A stretch of DNA of 64,000 nucleotides from a virus: IMG/VR virus record IMGVR_UViG_3300021962_000044, positions 1 through 64,000 of that record; one strand, given 5' to 3'. The translations under genes were made by a program, and so were the position numbers. Positions 3,942 to 31,321 of the stretch are shown piece by piece (position 1 is the stretch's first letter; each line of letters opens with the position of its first letter). The notes under the pieces are model-generated. The model saw only the letters and a program-made list of their open reading frames with translations, was not told where the DNA came from and searched no databases.

Positions 3942-4535
3942 TTATAAATATTCCCAGCCTGATCTACCGCGTTTTATTAACCCTCGGATAGCCTGACCAC
4001 TAATACCATATGATAATCCGGCTAGTTTTGTACTAGGAAAATGTTCTCCTGAGGGAGAAATACAAGGTCGATTGCGGTATTCTGCTAGTTTTTTCTTAGA
4101 ATTAGTTGTATGTGTTTTTCCTTTAAAAGGAGATTTTCTGCCCCTAGCACTATCAGCCATTTTTTGTTTGGTATCATCACTATGCTTTTTAATACCTTTA
4201 GTAAGCGCAGACATTGCAGCCGATGCTTCACGTTTCAATTGCTCATACAACCTTGATGATATTTTATATCTATTATGTAGTTTTGAATGTGCGGTCATCA
4301 TATCCACAGCCTTAATCATTTGAAATTTTGCTTTTCCCTCAACCATTTTAACTAATAATCTATGACAAATAAAATGCTCTCTGGCTGTTAATCTAATTAA
4401 ATTATCTTTTTTATTAGTACCGCCGAGACACTTTGGGATTATATGATGTTTTTCCGAGTATTCATCCAAAACTCTTGCTTTTGCTCTATTAACTATGTTA
4501 TTATACGTTATGGTATACTTATTATCTAAATACAT
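3942..4535 (-). CDS. HNH homing endonuclease (antiparallel insertion)
   Basis: A 197-residue protein with an HNH core (EKHHIIPKCLGG, DNLIRLTAREHF, then a His in CHRLL) and NUMOD-like DNA-binding repeats in the C-terminal half (KGKTHT, SKKKLAEYRN, ending in a helix-turn-helix-like segment). The start at 4535 is chosen because AAAGGAGC lies 8-10 bases upstream; the frame stays open further up but without a ribosome site. The gene fills the space between uvsW and the next plus-strand gene: its stop touches the uvsW stop and its late promoter lies 14 bp from the neighbour's start. It is therefore a free-standing mobile gene. Its leader is shared with the GIY-YIG gene at 24937. Confidence 0.9.
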   Translation of the reverse strand: MYLDNKYTITYNNIVNRAKARVLDEYSEKHHIIPKCLGGTNKKDNLIRLTAREHFICHRLLVKMVEGKAKFQMIKAVDMMTAHSKLHNRYKISSRLYEQLKREASAAMSALTKGIKKHSDDTKQKMADSARGRKSPFKGKTHTTNSKKKLAEYRNRPCISPSGEHFPSTKLAGLSYGISGQAIRGLIKRGRSGWEYL

Positions 4536-4592
4536 TGCTGATTGCTCCTTTGTAGCGTTAGAGAGGGTGGGAACTGCAATTCCGCGACCCTC
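4536..4592 (-). ncRNA. Structured 5' leader of the HNH gene
   Basis: The predicted transcript begins at 4592 with GAGGGT (4592-4587), a loop starting CGCGG, then ACCCTC (4568-4563), giving a 6-bp hairpin at the very 5' end; GGAA and TTCC inside the loop can extend it. CTCTAACGCTA and AAAGGAGC follow before the ATG. The leader at 24883-24936 has the same layout with a different stem that still pairs. Confidence 0.75.
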
Positions 4593-4597
4593 ACACT

Positions 4598-4605
4598 TAT
4601 TTATC
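4598..4605 (-). promoter_or_regulatory. T4-type late promoter for the HNH gene
   Basis: GATAAATA on the minus strand. The predicted start is 4592, the first base of the leader hairpin. Confidence 0.8.
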
Positions 4606-4618
4606 ACGGAGAACTAAA

Positions 4619-5119
4619 ATTCGCATCCTAACACTAGACAATGAGTTCTATAACCTAGAAACACTTCCCGAAGAAATTGATGACCTGCGTTTTGCTATAT
4701 TGGACAATAGTAATCCCTCAAACGTAGATTATCATTACATTCCACTAATCTTTTTGGAATCATTTAACAGTCCTGCACTTGTATTAAAGATTGGTAACAG
4801 CACTATTAAGATGCCAGTGGATTGGCAAATACTAATTGGCGAACAAGAACATGGGGACTTAGAGACATTACCATTAACAAGTATCAATGATAGAGGCTTC
4901 AATGCATTTGAGTTTAATCCATTAAGTTCATTCAGTCCCTCATTCGTACCTATCGAGATTGTAGATATCTATCACGATGTAACATGGTATGCACCTCGCT
5001 TGAAAAACGGACAGTTCTTATGTGTGCCGATTGATGATGGACCTAAACCTCGCTGTGTATATTTTGTTAAAGAAATTAGTCGTAATTGTGAAATAGTAGA
5101 TTATAGTCAGGCATTCTAA
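4619..5119 (+). CDS. Conserved phage protein with probable ATT start
   Basis: A 166-residue protein whose N-terminus would read MRILTLDNEFYNLETLP, then a mostly beta-rich body. I do not recognise a functional domain. The start is placed at the ATT at 4619 because GGAG (4608-4611) sits 7 bases upstream, whereas the TTG at 4700 has no ribosome site and would remove a well-formed N-terminus. One G-to-T change would turn the expected ATG into ATT. The stop overlaps the next ATG (TAATG at 5117-5121), so it is coupled to the clamp-loader-like gene. It probably belongs to the uvsW operon, read through the antiparallel HNH insertion. Confidence 0.65.
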   Translation: MRILTLDNEFYNLETLPEEIDDLRFAILDNSNPSNVDYHYIPLIFLESFNSPALVLKIGNSTIKMPVDWQILIGEQEHGDLETLPLTSINDRGFNAFEFNPLSSFSPSFVPIEIVDIYHDVTWYAPRLKNGQFLCVPIDDGPKPRCVYFVKEISRNCEIVDYSQAF

Positions 5120-21238: not shown

Positions 21239-21317
21239 TACGCTCTTAATTCTGAGAGTTTATGCAGTACCCACTGCGTAGCGGCTAGAACCCGCAATTA
21301 TAATTAAGGAAAATCAA
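21239..21317 (+). promoter_or_regulatory. Structured 5' leader of a virion gene
   Basis: Three hairpins in series: CTCT/AGAG (21243-21258), GCAGT-ACCC-ACTGC (21264-21277), GCGG/CCGC (21281-21295). A free AAGGAAAA ribosome site follows before the ATG at 21318. Confidence 0.55.
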
Positions 21318-22709
21318 ATGGGACGTCCTCTAAAAATCGCAAAGGCTCAAGCAGTCTTAACAATTACTGATACAGCCGCAACAGGTAGTATCGTTACAAT
21401 ATCAGGTGGAAATTTAACTACATCACCAACAGTTGGTGTAGCTAAAGGTATGCCATTCCAAGTAGCTACAACAGTTGGTGGCCTAACAGCAGGTGTTACA
21501 TATTTTATAAATTCAATACTATCAAATACTACATTTGATGTATCTGCTACAGACCTAAGTGTTCAGCCACAAGTTATGGCAACACTGTCTGACACAAGTA
21601 GTCAAACAGTTTTAATGTCGGTTGGTGTAGTTGATGCTTATTTTAATAATCCAGTAGGTGGTGCAGGTTTCCCTGCAACTAACGCTAATACATATGGTGT
21701 AGTTGGTGGCAATACAGCAATTGTTGGTAATCAAGTATTAACACGTGTTGCTATTGGTATCAATGGTACAGGTACATTGTACACACCTACAGCAGTTAAC
21801 ACAAGCACAGTGGTAGTAGGTGTAGGTACTGATTTAGCTAACTTAACAACTGGTGCCGCACTTCAAGTAGGTGTTGCTAACATTAATGGTAGTACTGATT
21901 ATGTTAATCTAGGTTTTGCAAGTGCAACAAAAGGTGATGTAACAGTAGCTGTTGCAAACACTGTAGTATCAGGAAATATAATTGGAACTTCTGGTAATGC
22001 CCAAACTCTTATAGTAGATATGCCAATTACATTTAGTGCTAATTTGGGTACTCTAGTAACAGGTACAACATATTTTGTTAAGGCTATTGCTAATGCTGCC
22101 GCATTTACAGTATCTACTAGCCAAAGTGGCCCTGAAGTACAAATGGCTGCCGCTACTGGTACACCAGATGCTGTAATGAACCGTGTTGTATTAACTGCTA
22201 ATGCAAATGTTGTAGCAAGTGGTGCGGCATATGTTTATGCAAATGATGAAGCTGGTTTTATCGTTCGTCAAAAAGGCAAAACAAAATATTTAGTTACAGG
22301 TGGTACAACTGGCTTGACAGCACAATGCTATACAGCTAACGTAGCAAACACAGCATTAACACCAAACACAATGAACATCTTGTCTACTGACGCCGCATCT
22401 GCTACAGCATTTGTATCAAGTATTAATGACTATAACTCTGAAGTGTTCCCAACACAAGTTGCAGCCGGTTCATTATCAGCAGGTACTGTTTACACAATTT
22501 ACAGTGCAGGTACAACAAACTGGACAGCAGTTGGTGCTATGGCTAATATGACAGGTATTACATTCACTGCTACTGGCGCAGGATCTGGTACAGGTACTGC
22601 TGTTGCATATACTGTTAACCCTGACGTTATTGCTACATTCAATACTGCGGCGGCTGCTAATGCGGCTAACGGTCAACCTAACCCGATCGTAGTTATTGCT
22701 AGTGCTTAA
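21318..22709 (+). CDS. Virion structural protein, Ala/Thr/Val-rich
   Basis: A 463-residue beta-rich protein starting GRPLKIAKAQAV, paralogous at its start and in a central segment (IVRQKGKTKYLV) to the protein encoded at 19600. It contains internal repeats of a module near GVTYFINSILSNTTFDVSA and GTTYFVKAIANAAAFTVST. The long structured leader and high Ala/Gly content suggest an abundant capsid or tail surface protein. No T4 counterpart named. Confidence 0.75.
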   Translation: MGRPLKIAKAQAVLTITDTAATGSIVTISGGNLTTSPTVGVAKGMPFQVATTVGGLTAGVTYFINSILSNTTFDVSATDLSVQPQVMATLSDTSSQTVLMSVGVVDAYFNNPVGGAGFPATNANTYGVVGGNTAIVGNQVLTRVAIGINGTGTLYTPTAVNTSTVVVGVGTDLANLTTGAALQVGVANINGSTDYVNLGFASATKGDVTVAVANTVVSGNIIGTSGNAQTLIVDMPITFSANLGTLVTGTTYFVKAIANAAAFTVSTSQSGPEVQMAAATGTPDAVMNRVVLTANANVVASGAAYVYANDEAGFIVRQKGKTKYLVTGGTTGLTAQCYTANVANTALTPNTMNILSTDAASATAFVSSINDYNSEVFPTQVAAGSLSAGTVYTIYSAGTTNWTAVGAMANMTGITFTATGAGSGTGTAVAYTVNPDVIATFNTAAAANAANGQPNPIVVIASA

Positions 22710-23460: not shown

Positions 23461-23489
23461 ATTATAGCATAAAGTAAATTAGATTACAA
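23461..23489 (-). promoter_or_regulatory. Sigma70-type promoter for the Nudix gene
   Basis: On the minus strand: TTGTAA (23489-23484), 17-bp spacer, TATAAT (23466-23461). The predicted start is about 4 nt before the ATG at 23450, with no ribosome site. It overlaps the last codons of gp15. Confidence 0.7.
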
Positions 23490-24855
23490 TACTATAATCA
23501 CCCTGGTCGTAAAAACCTTCCCACGATTTCATCCAGGAACCTTCTGAAGCAACATATCGATATTGTACATTAGTTGTTAAATTGGTTACGTATTGTACTT
23601 CAGTATCTACCGCACTGTTAAACGCAACAAACCATTCACCTGTTGTATCATCATATTCAATAATATCGTTTGCATATGCTACTACATTTCCCCATGCAAT
23701 AGTTGTATTATCCGGACTACCAATATCTTCTACTATAAGATATCTAATTCCGTTAACAGGAGTAGGTAACCCTGCATTTGGTCCAGTGACTAATGGGTTG
23801 ACCACGCTGTCTACAGGATCCAATGTATTTTGAGGCAGGGTATCCGGATCAATATTATAGATTAATAATCTATCATCATTTGGATCTGGAACAATAGTAC
23901 CTACAATTTCAGTATTCATAAAAGGATTTTGTAACCATATCTGACTAATACCTGGACGTAATGTTCCGTATACATTAAGCAAACTTGACCAATACAAACT
24001 AGTATTGGGATTAGGTGGCAAATCTAAATTTTCATTATCGGGATAGAAATCTTGATTAGCAGGTAATAATTGTAAACTATTACCTATTAATAATAACTTG
24101 TATCCGTATGGTGTAATCTTTTGTCTTGTACCTAATAACAAATCATCATTCTGTATATCATCTAATGCTTTACCAGAGAATATACTTGCAATAATCTTTT
24201 CAATAACACCCATCTTTTTAAGTTTGGCTGCATTGCTAATCCATATAGGCATGTAGAATTTCCAACTTAATACGTCAATGGGATTACCTGTACCTTGCGG
24301 AATAGTTCTACTACTAAATGTTAAACCATCTTGATATACAACACTTAAACTAGTCCAATCAATAAAGTTATCAGTAGATTGAATTTCTAATGAAGGATTG
24401 AATAGTGTACCTAGTTGTTCAATCAATTCTAATTTTTGATTATAATTAGTTGTCCATAAATCTACACTCATACGTAATGTATAGGGTACTGGCATTAATC
24501 TTTCAACAGTAAATGCCTGTCCTTGTACAGTTTCATAACTTTGTGTTTCTGTGTTATAGCTACGTTGACGAACTTGAATTTTATCAATGAAAGTGGGGTC
24601 CTGAGTTCTTTTTTGATCATATTCTAGACCAGTAATATAATATGTAATAAGTGGTGCGCTAGGTAAATTACTTGCACTGTTATTAGCAATGATAGTACTT
24701 GCTTGACGACTTGAGTCACCATACATAACTGGTACACGAACAAGTATATCATTACCTGCAGGATCTTTACCTTTAGTAACATACCAATTACTAAAGATTT
24801 TTCCAAACTGAATTAGAAATCTGCGGACCTGATTATCGTAGAAGAAGGCTGCCAA
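23479..24855 (-). CDS. 15: Tail completion / sheath stabiliser protein (gp15-like)
   Basis: A 458-residue protein. The N-terminus AAFFYDNQVRRFLIQFGKIF parallels T4 gp15 (FGYFYNSSFRRYATLMGDLF), followed by VRVPVMYGDSSR and a region matching the gp15 body (MPVPYTLRMSVDLWTTNYNQ). In T4, gp15 caps the tail and joins it to the head. The protein is much longer than T4 gp15 (272), with an extra C-terminal half. TTG at 24855 is taken as the start because AAGGA is 8-9 bases upstream. The GIY-YIG gene is inserted directly upstream in the opposite orientation, so transcription probably comes from the gp14 promoter through it. Confidence 0.85.
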   Translation of the reverse strand: MAAFFYDNQVRRFLIQFGKIFSNWYVTKGKDPAGNDILVRVPVMYGDSSRQASTIIANNSASNLPSAPLITYYITGLEYDQKRTQDPTFIDKIQVRQRSYNTETQSYETVQGQAFTVERLMPVPYTLRMSVDLWTTNYNQKLELIEQLGTLFNPSLEIQSTDNFIDWTSLSVVYQDGLTFSSRTIPQGTGNPIDVLSWKFYMPIWISNAAKLKKMGVIEKIIASIFSGKALDDIQNDDLLLGTRQKITPYGYKLLLIGNSLQLLPANQDFYPDNENLDLPPNPNTSLYWSSLLNVYGTLRPGISQIWLQNPFMNTEIVGTIVPDPNDDRLLIYNIDPDTLPQNTLDPVDSVVNPLVTGPNAGLPTPVNGIRYLIVEDIGSPDNTTIAWGNVVAYANDIIEYDDTTGEWFVAFNSAVDTEVQYVTNLTTNVQYRYVASEGSWMKSWEGFYDQGDYSIVI

Positions 24856-24869
24856 AATAGTATTCCTTG

Positions 24870-24877
24870 TATAAATA
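24870..24877 (+). promoter_or_regulatory. Consensus late promoter for the GIY-YIG gene
   Basis: TATAAATA. The predicted start 24883 is the first base of the leader hairpin. It lies 15 bp from the divergent gp15 start codon. Confidence 0.8.
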
Positions 24878-24882
24878 ATAGT

Positions 24883-24936
24883 GTAACTCGCGGCTTCTGA
24901 CACCCAGTTACTCTAACGCTATTAAGGAGCATCAGC
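24883..24936 (+). ncRNA. Structured 5' leader of the GIY-YIG gene
   Basis: GTAACT (24883-24888), a 17-nt loop starting CGCGG, AGTTAC (24906-24911), then TCTAACGCTA and AAGGAGC before the ATG. The layout matches the HNH leader at 4536-4592 with a different paired stem. Confidence 0.75.
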
Positions 24937-25551
24937 ATGACTATTTATCTTTATAAAAAGACCCATCGTATTACTGGATTAAAGTATCTAGGAAAAACTT
25001 CTTCAAAAGACCCGCATTTATACACAGGTTCGGGAAAATATTGGAAATCGCATCTAAACAAGCACGGATTTGATTACGATACTGAAATCTTAAGAGAATG
25101 TTATACTAACGATGAAGTTAAGCAATGGGGTGAATATTACAGTAACTTATGGAATATAGTTGAAAGTAATGAATGGGCTAATCTAAAAATAGAATCAGGT
25201 GACGGGGGCGATCCCGGTCCAATTGGTCGTAGTAAAATTGCAAAAGCTCAAACAGGAAGAAAACATACTACAGAAGAAAATGAGCACAAAAGCAAAAGAC
25301 AAACTGGTATAAAACGATCACCGGATTATCTTGCAAAAAAGATTGGACTAACATACAAAAAACCAAAAGCAAGAACTAGGCCAAACAAAAACAAAGGCAG
25401 ACAACTAACACAAGAATGGATTGATAATAGTGCAAAAAGTCGCACCGGCATGAAATACAAAATAATAGAATGTCCGCATTGCGGGAAACAGGGCGGGTCT
25501 TGCACTATGCCAAGATGGCATTTTAATAATTGCAAATCTCTAAAATCTTAA
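24937..25551 (+). CDS. GIY-YIG homing endonuclease (antiparallel insertion)
   Basis: A 204-residue protein. The N-terminal GIY-YIG core is IYLYKKTHRITGLKYLGKT (residues 3-21), with DYDTEILRE and an E-Y-Y helix following. NUMOD3-like repeats (GRKHTTEE, TGIKRSPDYL, TGMKYK) and a C-terminal zinc motif (CPHCGKQGG, then WHFNNC) supply DNA binding, as in Seg-type enzymes. It sits antiparallel between gp14 and gp15; its stop codon overlaps the gp14 stop codon, so it fills the intergenic space exactly. It is expressed late from its own promoter. Confidence 0.93.
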   Translation: MTIYLYKKTHRITGLKYLGKTSSKDPHLYTGSGKYWKSHLNKHGFDYDTEILRECYTNDEVKQWGEYYSNLWNIVESNEWANLKIESGDGGDPGPIGRSKIAKAQTGRKHTTEENEHKSKRQTGIKRSPDYLAKKIGLTYKKPKARTRPNKNKGRQLTQEWIDNSAKSRTGMKYKIIECPHCGKQGGSCTMPRWHFNNCKSLKS

Positions 25552-30490: not shown

Positions 30491-31321
30491 ATGAAAAACA
30501 TACTTGCAACCATAATTGCTGAAGATACAAGTTATAATAAATCTGTAACTAGATATTTGAGTAAAACACATCCTGAATTATGGAATAAAATATTAGAAAT
30601 CACCTCTTTTTTACCAAAAAATGCTAAACCTAAACAAAGAGTGTGGCATGTATTACATGAAAAATATTCCATAGAGCTATGTCCAATTACCGGAGAAGCA
30701 TTGCGATGGAATGAAAAAGATTACAGAAGATTTGCGTCCATTGAAGCAAAAAATAAAGGTATCGGAAAGATAGTCAGTAGTGCAACTACTGGTAATCATT
30801 GGAGACAAAAAGATCCTAATAAATCTATGCAAGCTAATGAAAAATTCTCAACTGGATTTATTAAGGGTAATCATAAGCCTTGGAATGAACGTAACAGAGA
30901 TTACACATCTAGTTTAGAAGCAGCCAGAAAAACTTGGATGGAAAAATATGGAGTTGATAATCCCTCTAAATGTCCTGCTATACGGCAAAAACTTTCTAAA
31001 TCTGCAATCAGTAGATATTCAGGAGTAGATAGAACTCTGGAAGTAGAATATTATAACGCTGTTAAATTGGTCACTAATAAAAACTGGTATGAACATTTTT
31101 ATGATATTAATCCTAATCGGTTGTCAAGAAGTAGAGACCTTCACTTAGACCACATTTACAGTATTAGTGAAGGTTTCAAAAATAATATTCCTGCAGAAGT
31201 TATTGGGCATTGGACTAATCTAAGATTAATTCCAAAAATAGAAAACTCTAGTAAGGGTGCCAAATGTCACAAAACAATAGAAGAATTATTTGAGGATTAT
31301 AATAGGGTAAATTCTAATTGA
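30491..31321 (+). CDS. HNH homing endonuclease
   Basis: A 276-residue protein. The HNH core is at the C-terminus: LDHIYSISEGF, then HWTNLRLIP and IENSSKGAK. The middle contains a MEKYGVDNPSK-type repeat typical of phage homing enzymes (DNA-recognition). It is co-directional with gp13 and, unlike the HNH at 4535, has no hairpin leader; its late transcript should start on the ATG. Its stop codon overlaps the -35 box of the dNMP kinase promoter. Confidence 0.88.
   Translation: MKNILATIIAEDTSYNKSVTRYLSKTHPELWNKILEITSFLPKNAKPKQRVWHVLHEKYSIELCPITGEALRWNEKDYRRFASIEAKNKGIGKIVSSATTGNHWRQKDPNKSMQANEKFSTGFIKGNHKPWNERNRDYTSSLEAARKTWMEKYGVDNPSKCPAIRQKLSKSAISRYSGVDRTLEVEYYNAVKLVTNKNWYEHFYDINPNRLSRSRDLHLDHIYSISEGFKNNIPAEVIGHWTNLRLIPKIENSSKGAKCHKTIEELFEDYNRVNSN

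Follow-up and report, generated by a model that had tools for sequence, protein, structure and literature searches.

RNA-OUT of IS10 (Tn10) is a 69-nt antisense RNA directed against the start of the transposase mRNA, and its promoter faces the promoter of that mRNA (PMC5006887). Similarly, CfrI of cyanophage S-PM2 is an antisense RNA linked to psbA and the homing endonuclease F-CphI (PMC2984593). How phages cope with a large number of homing endonucleases is still an open question, to which a shared RNA cassette would be a general answer. Here, we analyzed an element found at the start of two homing endonuclease genes in the first 64,000 nucleotides (hereafter, the window) of IMG/VR record IMGVR_UViG_3300021962_000044, a 111-kb virus record with the T4-like genes uvsW, gp15, and tail sheath on board. 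As in RNA-OUT, the element showed complementarity to the translation initiation region and a stable, selected fold on the antisense strand.

Two endonuclease genes in the window start with the same element

The first copy precedes a minus-strand gene for a 197-aa homing endonuclease with HNH and NUMOD3 domains (3942..4535; Pfam NUMOD3 1e-9, HNH 0.0016; PHROG homing endonuclease 2.6e-46), which is antisense to its neighbours, uvsW and a gene of unknown function (phrog_11279). The second copy precedes a plus-strand gene for a 204-aa protein (24937..25551; PHROG homing endonuclease 5.1e-16), flanked by gp15 and a virion gene and again antisense to both. The Pfam search gave no match for the latter protein; its GIY-YIG fold was assigned because the motif YLYKKTH..GLKYLGKT is present.

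As read on the minus strand (~4605-4533), the HNH leader is GATAAATA AGTGT GAGGGT CGCGGAATTGCAGTTCCC ACCCTC TCTAACGCTA C AAAGGAGC AATCAGCA ATG, and the GIY-YIG leader, on the plus strand (24870-24939), is TATAAATA ATAGT GTAACT CGCGGCTTCTGACACCC AGTTAC TCTAACGCTA TT AAGGAGC ATCAGC ATG. Re-reading of the sequence confirmed what a previous sequence-only reading had observed: the common order is a T4-type late promoter, a hairpin, the shared block TCTAACGCTA, the Shine-Dalgarno sequence AAGGAGC, and ATG, and the two stems, although unlike at four of six positions, are both able to pair. The segment that it gave as CTCTAACGCTA takes in the final base of the 3′ stem. From sequence and spacing statistics, the late promoters were predicted at 4598..4605 on the minus strand (GATAAATA; start 5 nt downstream, opposite 4592) and at 24870..24877 on the plus strand (TATAAATA; start G24883). 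The Shine-Dalgarno AAGGAG of the HNH gene (4545..4550, minus strand) lies within the element.

By itself, the 11-mer shared by the leaders, which the window contains in these two places and nowhere else, is weak evidence, because 10 of 100 shuffles gave two matches with one mismatch allowed. The full arrangement is far beyond chance, since more than 400 distinct IMG/VR copies keep the order of elements and the covariance model (R2) detected both window copies with E = 5.7e-17 (4527-4603, plus strand, for the HNH copy and 24947-24872, minus strand, for the GIY-YIG copy; 80.7 bits each). Not noted in the sequence-only reading were the inner stem and the bulges of hairpin 1, a further hairpin that covers the ribosome-binding site, a TATTTA conserved past the start codon, another copy of the element elsewhere in the record (the third), and the strand asymmetry of the covariation.

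The element is widespread in uncultured T4-like phages

The IMG/VR pattern scans share fixed words, the frequencies obtained are those of sampled elements, and the viral records are fragments. When only hairpin 1, the sense promoter, and CTA were required, at least 415 distinct elements were found in IMG/VR, and the set used for strand counting contained at least 401. The combination of hairpin, promoter, and CTAA occurred 398 times in 3.36 Mb of viral loci but not at all in 0.89 Mb of control bacterial sequence; pattern matches in bacterial genomes were apparently due to chance and served as the negative control. R2 detected three copies in the source record and at least one in each of 23 other IMG/VR records (24/24 positive including the source), with up to 13 per record. 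Further examples, on which the earlier proposal was to stand or fall, were thus abundant among the IMG/VR records searched with the covariance model.

The third copy in the source record (72001-72075 of the record, plus strand) lies ahead of another HNH endonuclease gene on the minus strand (locus L627, record 70500-73500). A 194,645-bp record (G019, that of locus L521) contained eight divergent copies, mostly with longer loops or with hairpin 2 types such as GGAACT..AGTTCT.

R2 gave no copy in ten cultured phages (T4, S-PM2, Aeromonas phage 25, ValKK3, Atu_ph07, Phosso, PA5oct, and three more), and DNA searches of isolated phages with the GIY-YIG gene and with the consensus leader were negative. 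The carriers are T4-like, with gp15 in seven and gp55-like late sigma factors in five of the eight records searched; gp55 was not found in a search of the source record, which is a fragment. By gp15 (window 23479-24903, minus strand), the closest cultured relatives are the jumbo phages Atu_ph07, Phosso, and PA5oct, at 32-37% identity, none of which has the element. Rfam 15 showed no gathering-level match at the HNH or GIY-YIG element; at E up to 10, the HNH element, which was the one searched, gave a single chance match outside the element. By these searches, uncultured T4-like phages very commonly carry the element, which constitutes an RNA family that Rfam 15 lacks.

Covariation reveals the selected strand

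Next, we analyzed the pairing pattern of the hairpins. The earlier claim of a structured RNA with true covariation held, as double changes occurred at all 11 pairs of hairpin 1, and 407 double-change cells were counted compared to 119 in shuffles. As read on the gene strand, hairpin 1 (6 bp, C-R-C side, and inner stem) was paired in 94.9% of cells. Across 10 pairs and 401 distinct elements, the gene-strand cells comprised 3885 Watson-Crick pairs, 124 A.C, and one G.U, as counted with a filter treating G.U and A.C alike; pairing was 96.9% on the gene strand and 99.98% on the opposite strand. Because the cells of the 124:1 count are not independent, haplotypes were also counted, and the 53 distinct outer-stem haplotypes showed 27 A.C and no G.U on the gene strand. 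The G.U counts of one comparison, in which some elements were mis-oriented, were left out. Since a G.U wobble appears as an A.C mismatch when the complementary strand is read, these counts indicate that the opposite-strand fold is what selection keeps. This strand asymmetry, a matter of counts, is well supported and is the central result of the analysis.

In an antisense alignment of 82 sequences, double changes were observed at 16/16 pairs of the two hairpins, with hairpin 1 paired in 99.8%, and none of 500 shuffles attained any of the five measures. The mean folding energy was −16.7 kcal/mol for the antisense RNA and −12.7 kcal/mol for the sense RNA. In line with the earlier proposal, the hairpins could serve the endonuclease mRNA itself, as a 5′ stabilizer or a protein-binding operator. 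Consistent with this reading, the predicted sense start is the first base of hairpin 1, and the sense RNA folds hairpin 1 with a mean probability of 0.83. However, the A.C:G.U ratios (124:1 by cells and 27:0 by haplotypes) are the reverse of those of a selected sense RNA, and in the GIY-YIG copy hairpin 1 is missing from the folded sense RNA (minimum energy −8.1, compared to −16.7 for its antisense RNA). We regard an action on the endonuclease mRNA as very unlikely. The folded molecule as endonuclease mRNA leader was thus not borne out, and roles in mRNA stability or late-only translation are not the best reading, because the opposite strand carries the wobble pattern, a promoter-like sequence of its own, and the more stable fold. 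The strand taken as folded in that reading was probably the wrong one, the folded RNA being read from the strand opposite the endonuclease gene. The wobble pairs of a covarying hairpin can hence reveal the functional strand, and the endonuclease-mRNA reading would have pointed experiments at the wrong molecule.

On the antisense strand, hairpin 1 of the HNH copy (4563..4592, plus strand) reads GAGGGT G GGAA-loop-TTCC G C G ACCCTC and includes an R-Y pair with a single bulged G on either side; that of the GIY-YIG copy lies at 24883..24911 on the minus strand. When scans fixed hairpin 1 only, the block after it proved variable, changing from GCT..AGC to GTT..AAC, GCC..GGC, ATT..AAT, ATA..TAT, ACT..AGT, and others. 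On the antisense strand, this block belongs to hairpin 2, an 8-bp helix of CUGAUGCU with AGCRUUAG, which takes in the conserved flanks TCTA and CAGC, paired through one G.U, and whose outer pairs change together (CTA:CAG to TTA:CAA). Its 7-nt loop faces the Shine-Dalgarno sequence, and one A separates the two hairpins. The HNH copy has hairpin 2 at 4538..4561 on the plus strand (loop CCTTTGT), with A4562 as the separating base; the GIY-YIG copy has it at 24913..24935 on the minus strand as CTGATGCT-CCTTAAT-AGCGTTAG, with 8 bp including two G.U. A sense-strand second hairpin with the Shine-Dalgarno sequence in its loop was set aside, as the antisense strand fits the same columns better (8 bp).

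Two predicted late promoters face each other across the element

A T4-type late promoter was present as a sequence feature on both strands. The sequence-only reading had placed the hairpin on the predicted first transcribed base, and indeed it begins 5 nt past TAAATA in 308/405 copies, where T4 late transcripts would start. Similarly, the spacing from CAGC to TATTTA is 5 nt in 300/404 copies, so the antisense strand reads TAAATA-N5-G, with a core and spacing identical to those of the sense promoter. The two predicted promoters face each other across ~56 bp, and the predicted starts lie at either end of the element. In the HNH copy, the antisense TAAATA, which is the TATTTA right after the start codon, lies at 4527..4532 on the plus strand, with a predicted start at G4537 and a predicted antisense RNA at 4537..4603, whose 3′ end is uncertain within a U-rich stretch past hairpin 1. 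In the GIY-YIG copy, it lies in codons 2-4 (24942..24947, minus strand), with a predicted start opposite C24936 and a predicted RNA at 24872..24936 on the minus strand. The spacer after the sense promoter is A-rich (70/67/70% A compared to 35/40/39% at generic TAAATA sites) and would be U-rich in the antisense RNA. This stretch is not a clean terminator, and a terminator scan at the HNH copy called none.

In scans that did not require it, TATTTA was present in 226/255 elements. It stands at offset 3, 4, or 5 from ATG, that is, in all three reading frames, indicating that its nucleotides rather than the encoded residues are conserved. Furthermore, where the start codon has shifted upstream (L308, L459, L483, L491, and L568), CAGC (or TAGC/CAGT)-N5-TATTTA is still kept. 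A protein-coding constraint (M-x-I-Y) was ruled out by the three frames and by this retention in N-terminally extended proteins.

The main rival explanation is that the antisense transcript supplies a promoter and a structured 5′ leader to the gene beside the endonuclease, such that an endonuclease usually antisense in an operon would earn its position by equipping the host gene downstream of it with a late promoter and a stable 5′ end. A hairpin one nucleotide from the 5′ end would stabilize an mRNA. In the window, gp15 and the phrog_11279 gene, the two neighbours, each have their start no more than ~20 nt from the element, and upstream neighbours were divergent in 133 of 193 classified copies (approximately two thirds antisense to the operon), with orientation called from open runs rather than curated genes. 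This is unlike T4, where all endonuclease genes except segD run with their neighbours, although T4 also offers a precedent in host-gene promoters embedded in endonuclease genes (PMC2988022). However, co-oriented copies, which have no neighbour able to use the promoter, keep TATTTA equally (51/58, compared to 103/111 with a divergent neighbour; p = 0.39), as expected if the motif serves the endonuclease and not the neighbour; a promoter needed by divergent neighbours only is thus unsupported by orientation. Hairpins are also equally intact in co-oriented (91.0%) and divergent (91.4%) copies. Furthermore, several operon relics without the endonuclease gene (L452, L464, L565, and L263) have lost TATTTA, and at empty sites the neighbours are spaced like operons with no promoter there. 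A leader for the neighbouring gene is unlikely in our estimate, and a payment to the downstream host gene equally so.

Several observations concern these neighbours and sites. The endonuclease gene was deleted, or reduced to a few codons beside the element, in L452, L464, L565, L263, L579, L355, and L073. The phrog_11279 gene (window 4619-5119, plus strand) seems to start with ATT (GGAGAACTAAA ATT CGC ATC CTA), and its L317 homologue reads ATG CGA ATC CTA; for gp15, next to the GIY-YIG gene, the start codon seems to be TTG, compared to ATG in an empty-site relative (L412). The window also contains a freshwater-2 RNA (Rfam RF02980, 62 bits; 21243-21320, plus strand) directly past a late promoter GATAAATA and before an ORF at 21318-22709. 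It is a second structured RNA at a late start in this phage, and it has no obvious sequence resemblance to the element.

The complementarity of the two promoter 6-mers brings in a different kind of control, in which UAAAUA would pair with UAUUUA in read-through RNA and hide the start codon, while transcripts from the late promoter would escape. The same logic is known for I-TevI, segB, and Aeh1 mobE (PMC2988022). However, folding of 150 copies gave a Shine-Dalgarno accessibility of 0.53 in the late RNA and 0.50 in the read-through RNA, the 6-mers paired with a mean probability of only 0.23, and destroying the upstream 6-mer made no change. Such sequestration is disfavoured by this lack of a folding effect, and we consider it extremely improbable.

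Unrelated nucleases share the cassette

Downstream ORFs reaching at least 110 aa (n = 270) were clustered by their N-termini, which gave 104 GIY-YIG type A, 84 HNH, and 64 GIY-YIG type B proteins, and a remainder. Pfam analysis of 49 representatives and the two window proteins showed NUMOD3, GIY-YIG, SegE-type GIY-YIG, several HNH families, and TnsA-like nucleases. The proposal that the cassette has moved between endonuclease types was borne out: 26 hairpin sequences were identical across more than one nuclease family, and the nearest non-identical element belonged to the same family in 36% of cases, compared to 30% by chance. A cassette common to nuclease types is supported because copies precede at least three unrelated families and, as the sequences stand, are nearly uncoupled from them. 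The window also has a 276-aa ORF (30491-31321, plus strand) that is similar to endonuclease VII / homing endonuclease families and does not carry the element.

This almost free exchange would also suit an element working as DNA, either as a one-strand hairpin or as a homology patch for moving or recombining endonuclease genes. Its ends mirror each other (TAAATA-N5-G and C-N5-TATTTA), and G.T pairs are tolerated in single-stranded DNA hairpins too. Nevertheless, the mirrored ends are those of two late promoters with an initiating G, a layout that a DNA hairpin would not require; aligned copies showed no sequence conserved beyond the promoters, and no known family of such kind was matched. A function as DNA seems improbable to us, to much the same degree as an action on the endonuclease mRNA.

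Model and comparison with known systems

In the model that fits best, which we hold to be moderately probable, the cassette encodes a cis-antisense RNA that limits translation of the endonuclease. The anatomy, covariation, strand asymmetry, spread, and uncoupling described above are read from the sequences, and from them we infer that the antisense RNA is transcribed, where it ends, and that it represses the endonuclease. Each copy would serve a free-standing homing endonuclease gene as a regulatory cassette that is placed where the gene begins and has two late promoters. The first of these (TAAATA, 5 nt, G) would drive the endonuclease mRNA, and the second, which lies within codons 2-4 and faces the first, would drive an antisense RNA of ~60-70 nt whose 5′ base is complementary to the C that directly precedes the start codon. 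After a 5′-G, this RNA is predicted to fold into an 8-bp hairpin, whose loop CCUUNNW faces the Shine-Dalgarno sequence, and, past a single A, into a bulged hairpin of 11 bp, followed by the U-rich stretch, which may end or stabilize the RNA. In both window copies, the antisense strand of the element complements the 5′ leader of the endonuclease mRNA over its full length, ribosome-binding site included. The antisense RNA would most likely pair with this mRNA and hold back translation, such that the selfish nuclease stays tolerable to the phage; the cassette itself has been swapped between unrelated nucleases. Counted against the model is that similar hairpins could form in the endonuclease mRNA, where they may have a use as well.

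Alternatively, the antisense RNA may act in trans, such that the copies in one phage (up to 13) regulate one another and keep the overall endonuclease load in check, or have some other function in common that relates to spread. We consider this rather unlikely; if true, the element would be a selfish RNA gene riding with whatever nuclease is at hand.

Compared with known systems, the cassette resembles the PeSL cassettes of T4-type phages, which, as far as they are described where cited in PMC4503421, are small combinations of a promoter and a stem-loop thought to shuffle between genes. In that description, however, PeSLs consist of an early promoter and a terminator stem-loop located between genes, whereas the element has two late promoters across the endonuclease start and overlaps the gene. 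I-TevI, I-TevII, I-TevIII, segB, and Aeh1 mobE also have a late promoter directly upstream and an RNA structure at the ribosome-binding site (PMC2988022), but in these genes the structure is restricted to longer, earlier transcripts, in which it hides the ribosome-binding site, and this is not so for the element. Similarly, seg43(25) of Aeromonas phage 25 has a stable hairpin directly upstream of, and not covering, the ribosome-binding site (PMC2988022); it is a single case with no antisense evidence, and R2 gave no match in that phage. CfrI, likewise from a T4-like phage, runs antisense to a homing endonuclease gene. In contrast to the element, it is ~225 nt long, psbA-linked, and a single case, and a search of the complete S-PM2 record (AJ630128) with R2 gave no match at E ≤ 1, with the 24/24 positive IMG/VR records as the control.

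No Rfam 15 family model, that of RNA-OUT included, matched the element; the likeness to RNA-OUT / RNA-IN lies in the layout, in which an antisense RNA of similar size, here a predicted one, opposes the start of the mRNA of a selfish DNA-cutting enzyme. The element differs in having two hairpins, where RNA-OUT has one domain, and in its association with phage late promoters and with homing endonucleases of unrelated families rather than a transposase. Under the model, antisense control as in transposons would extend across several families of unrelated nucleases in hundreds of uncultured phages.
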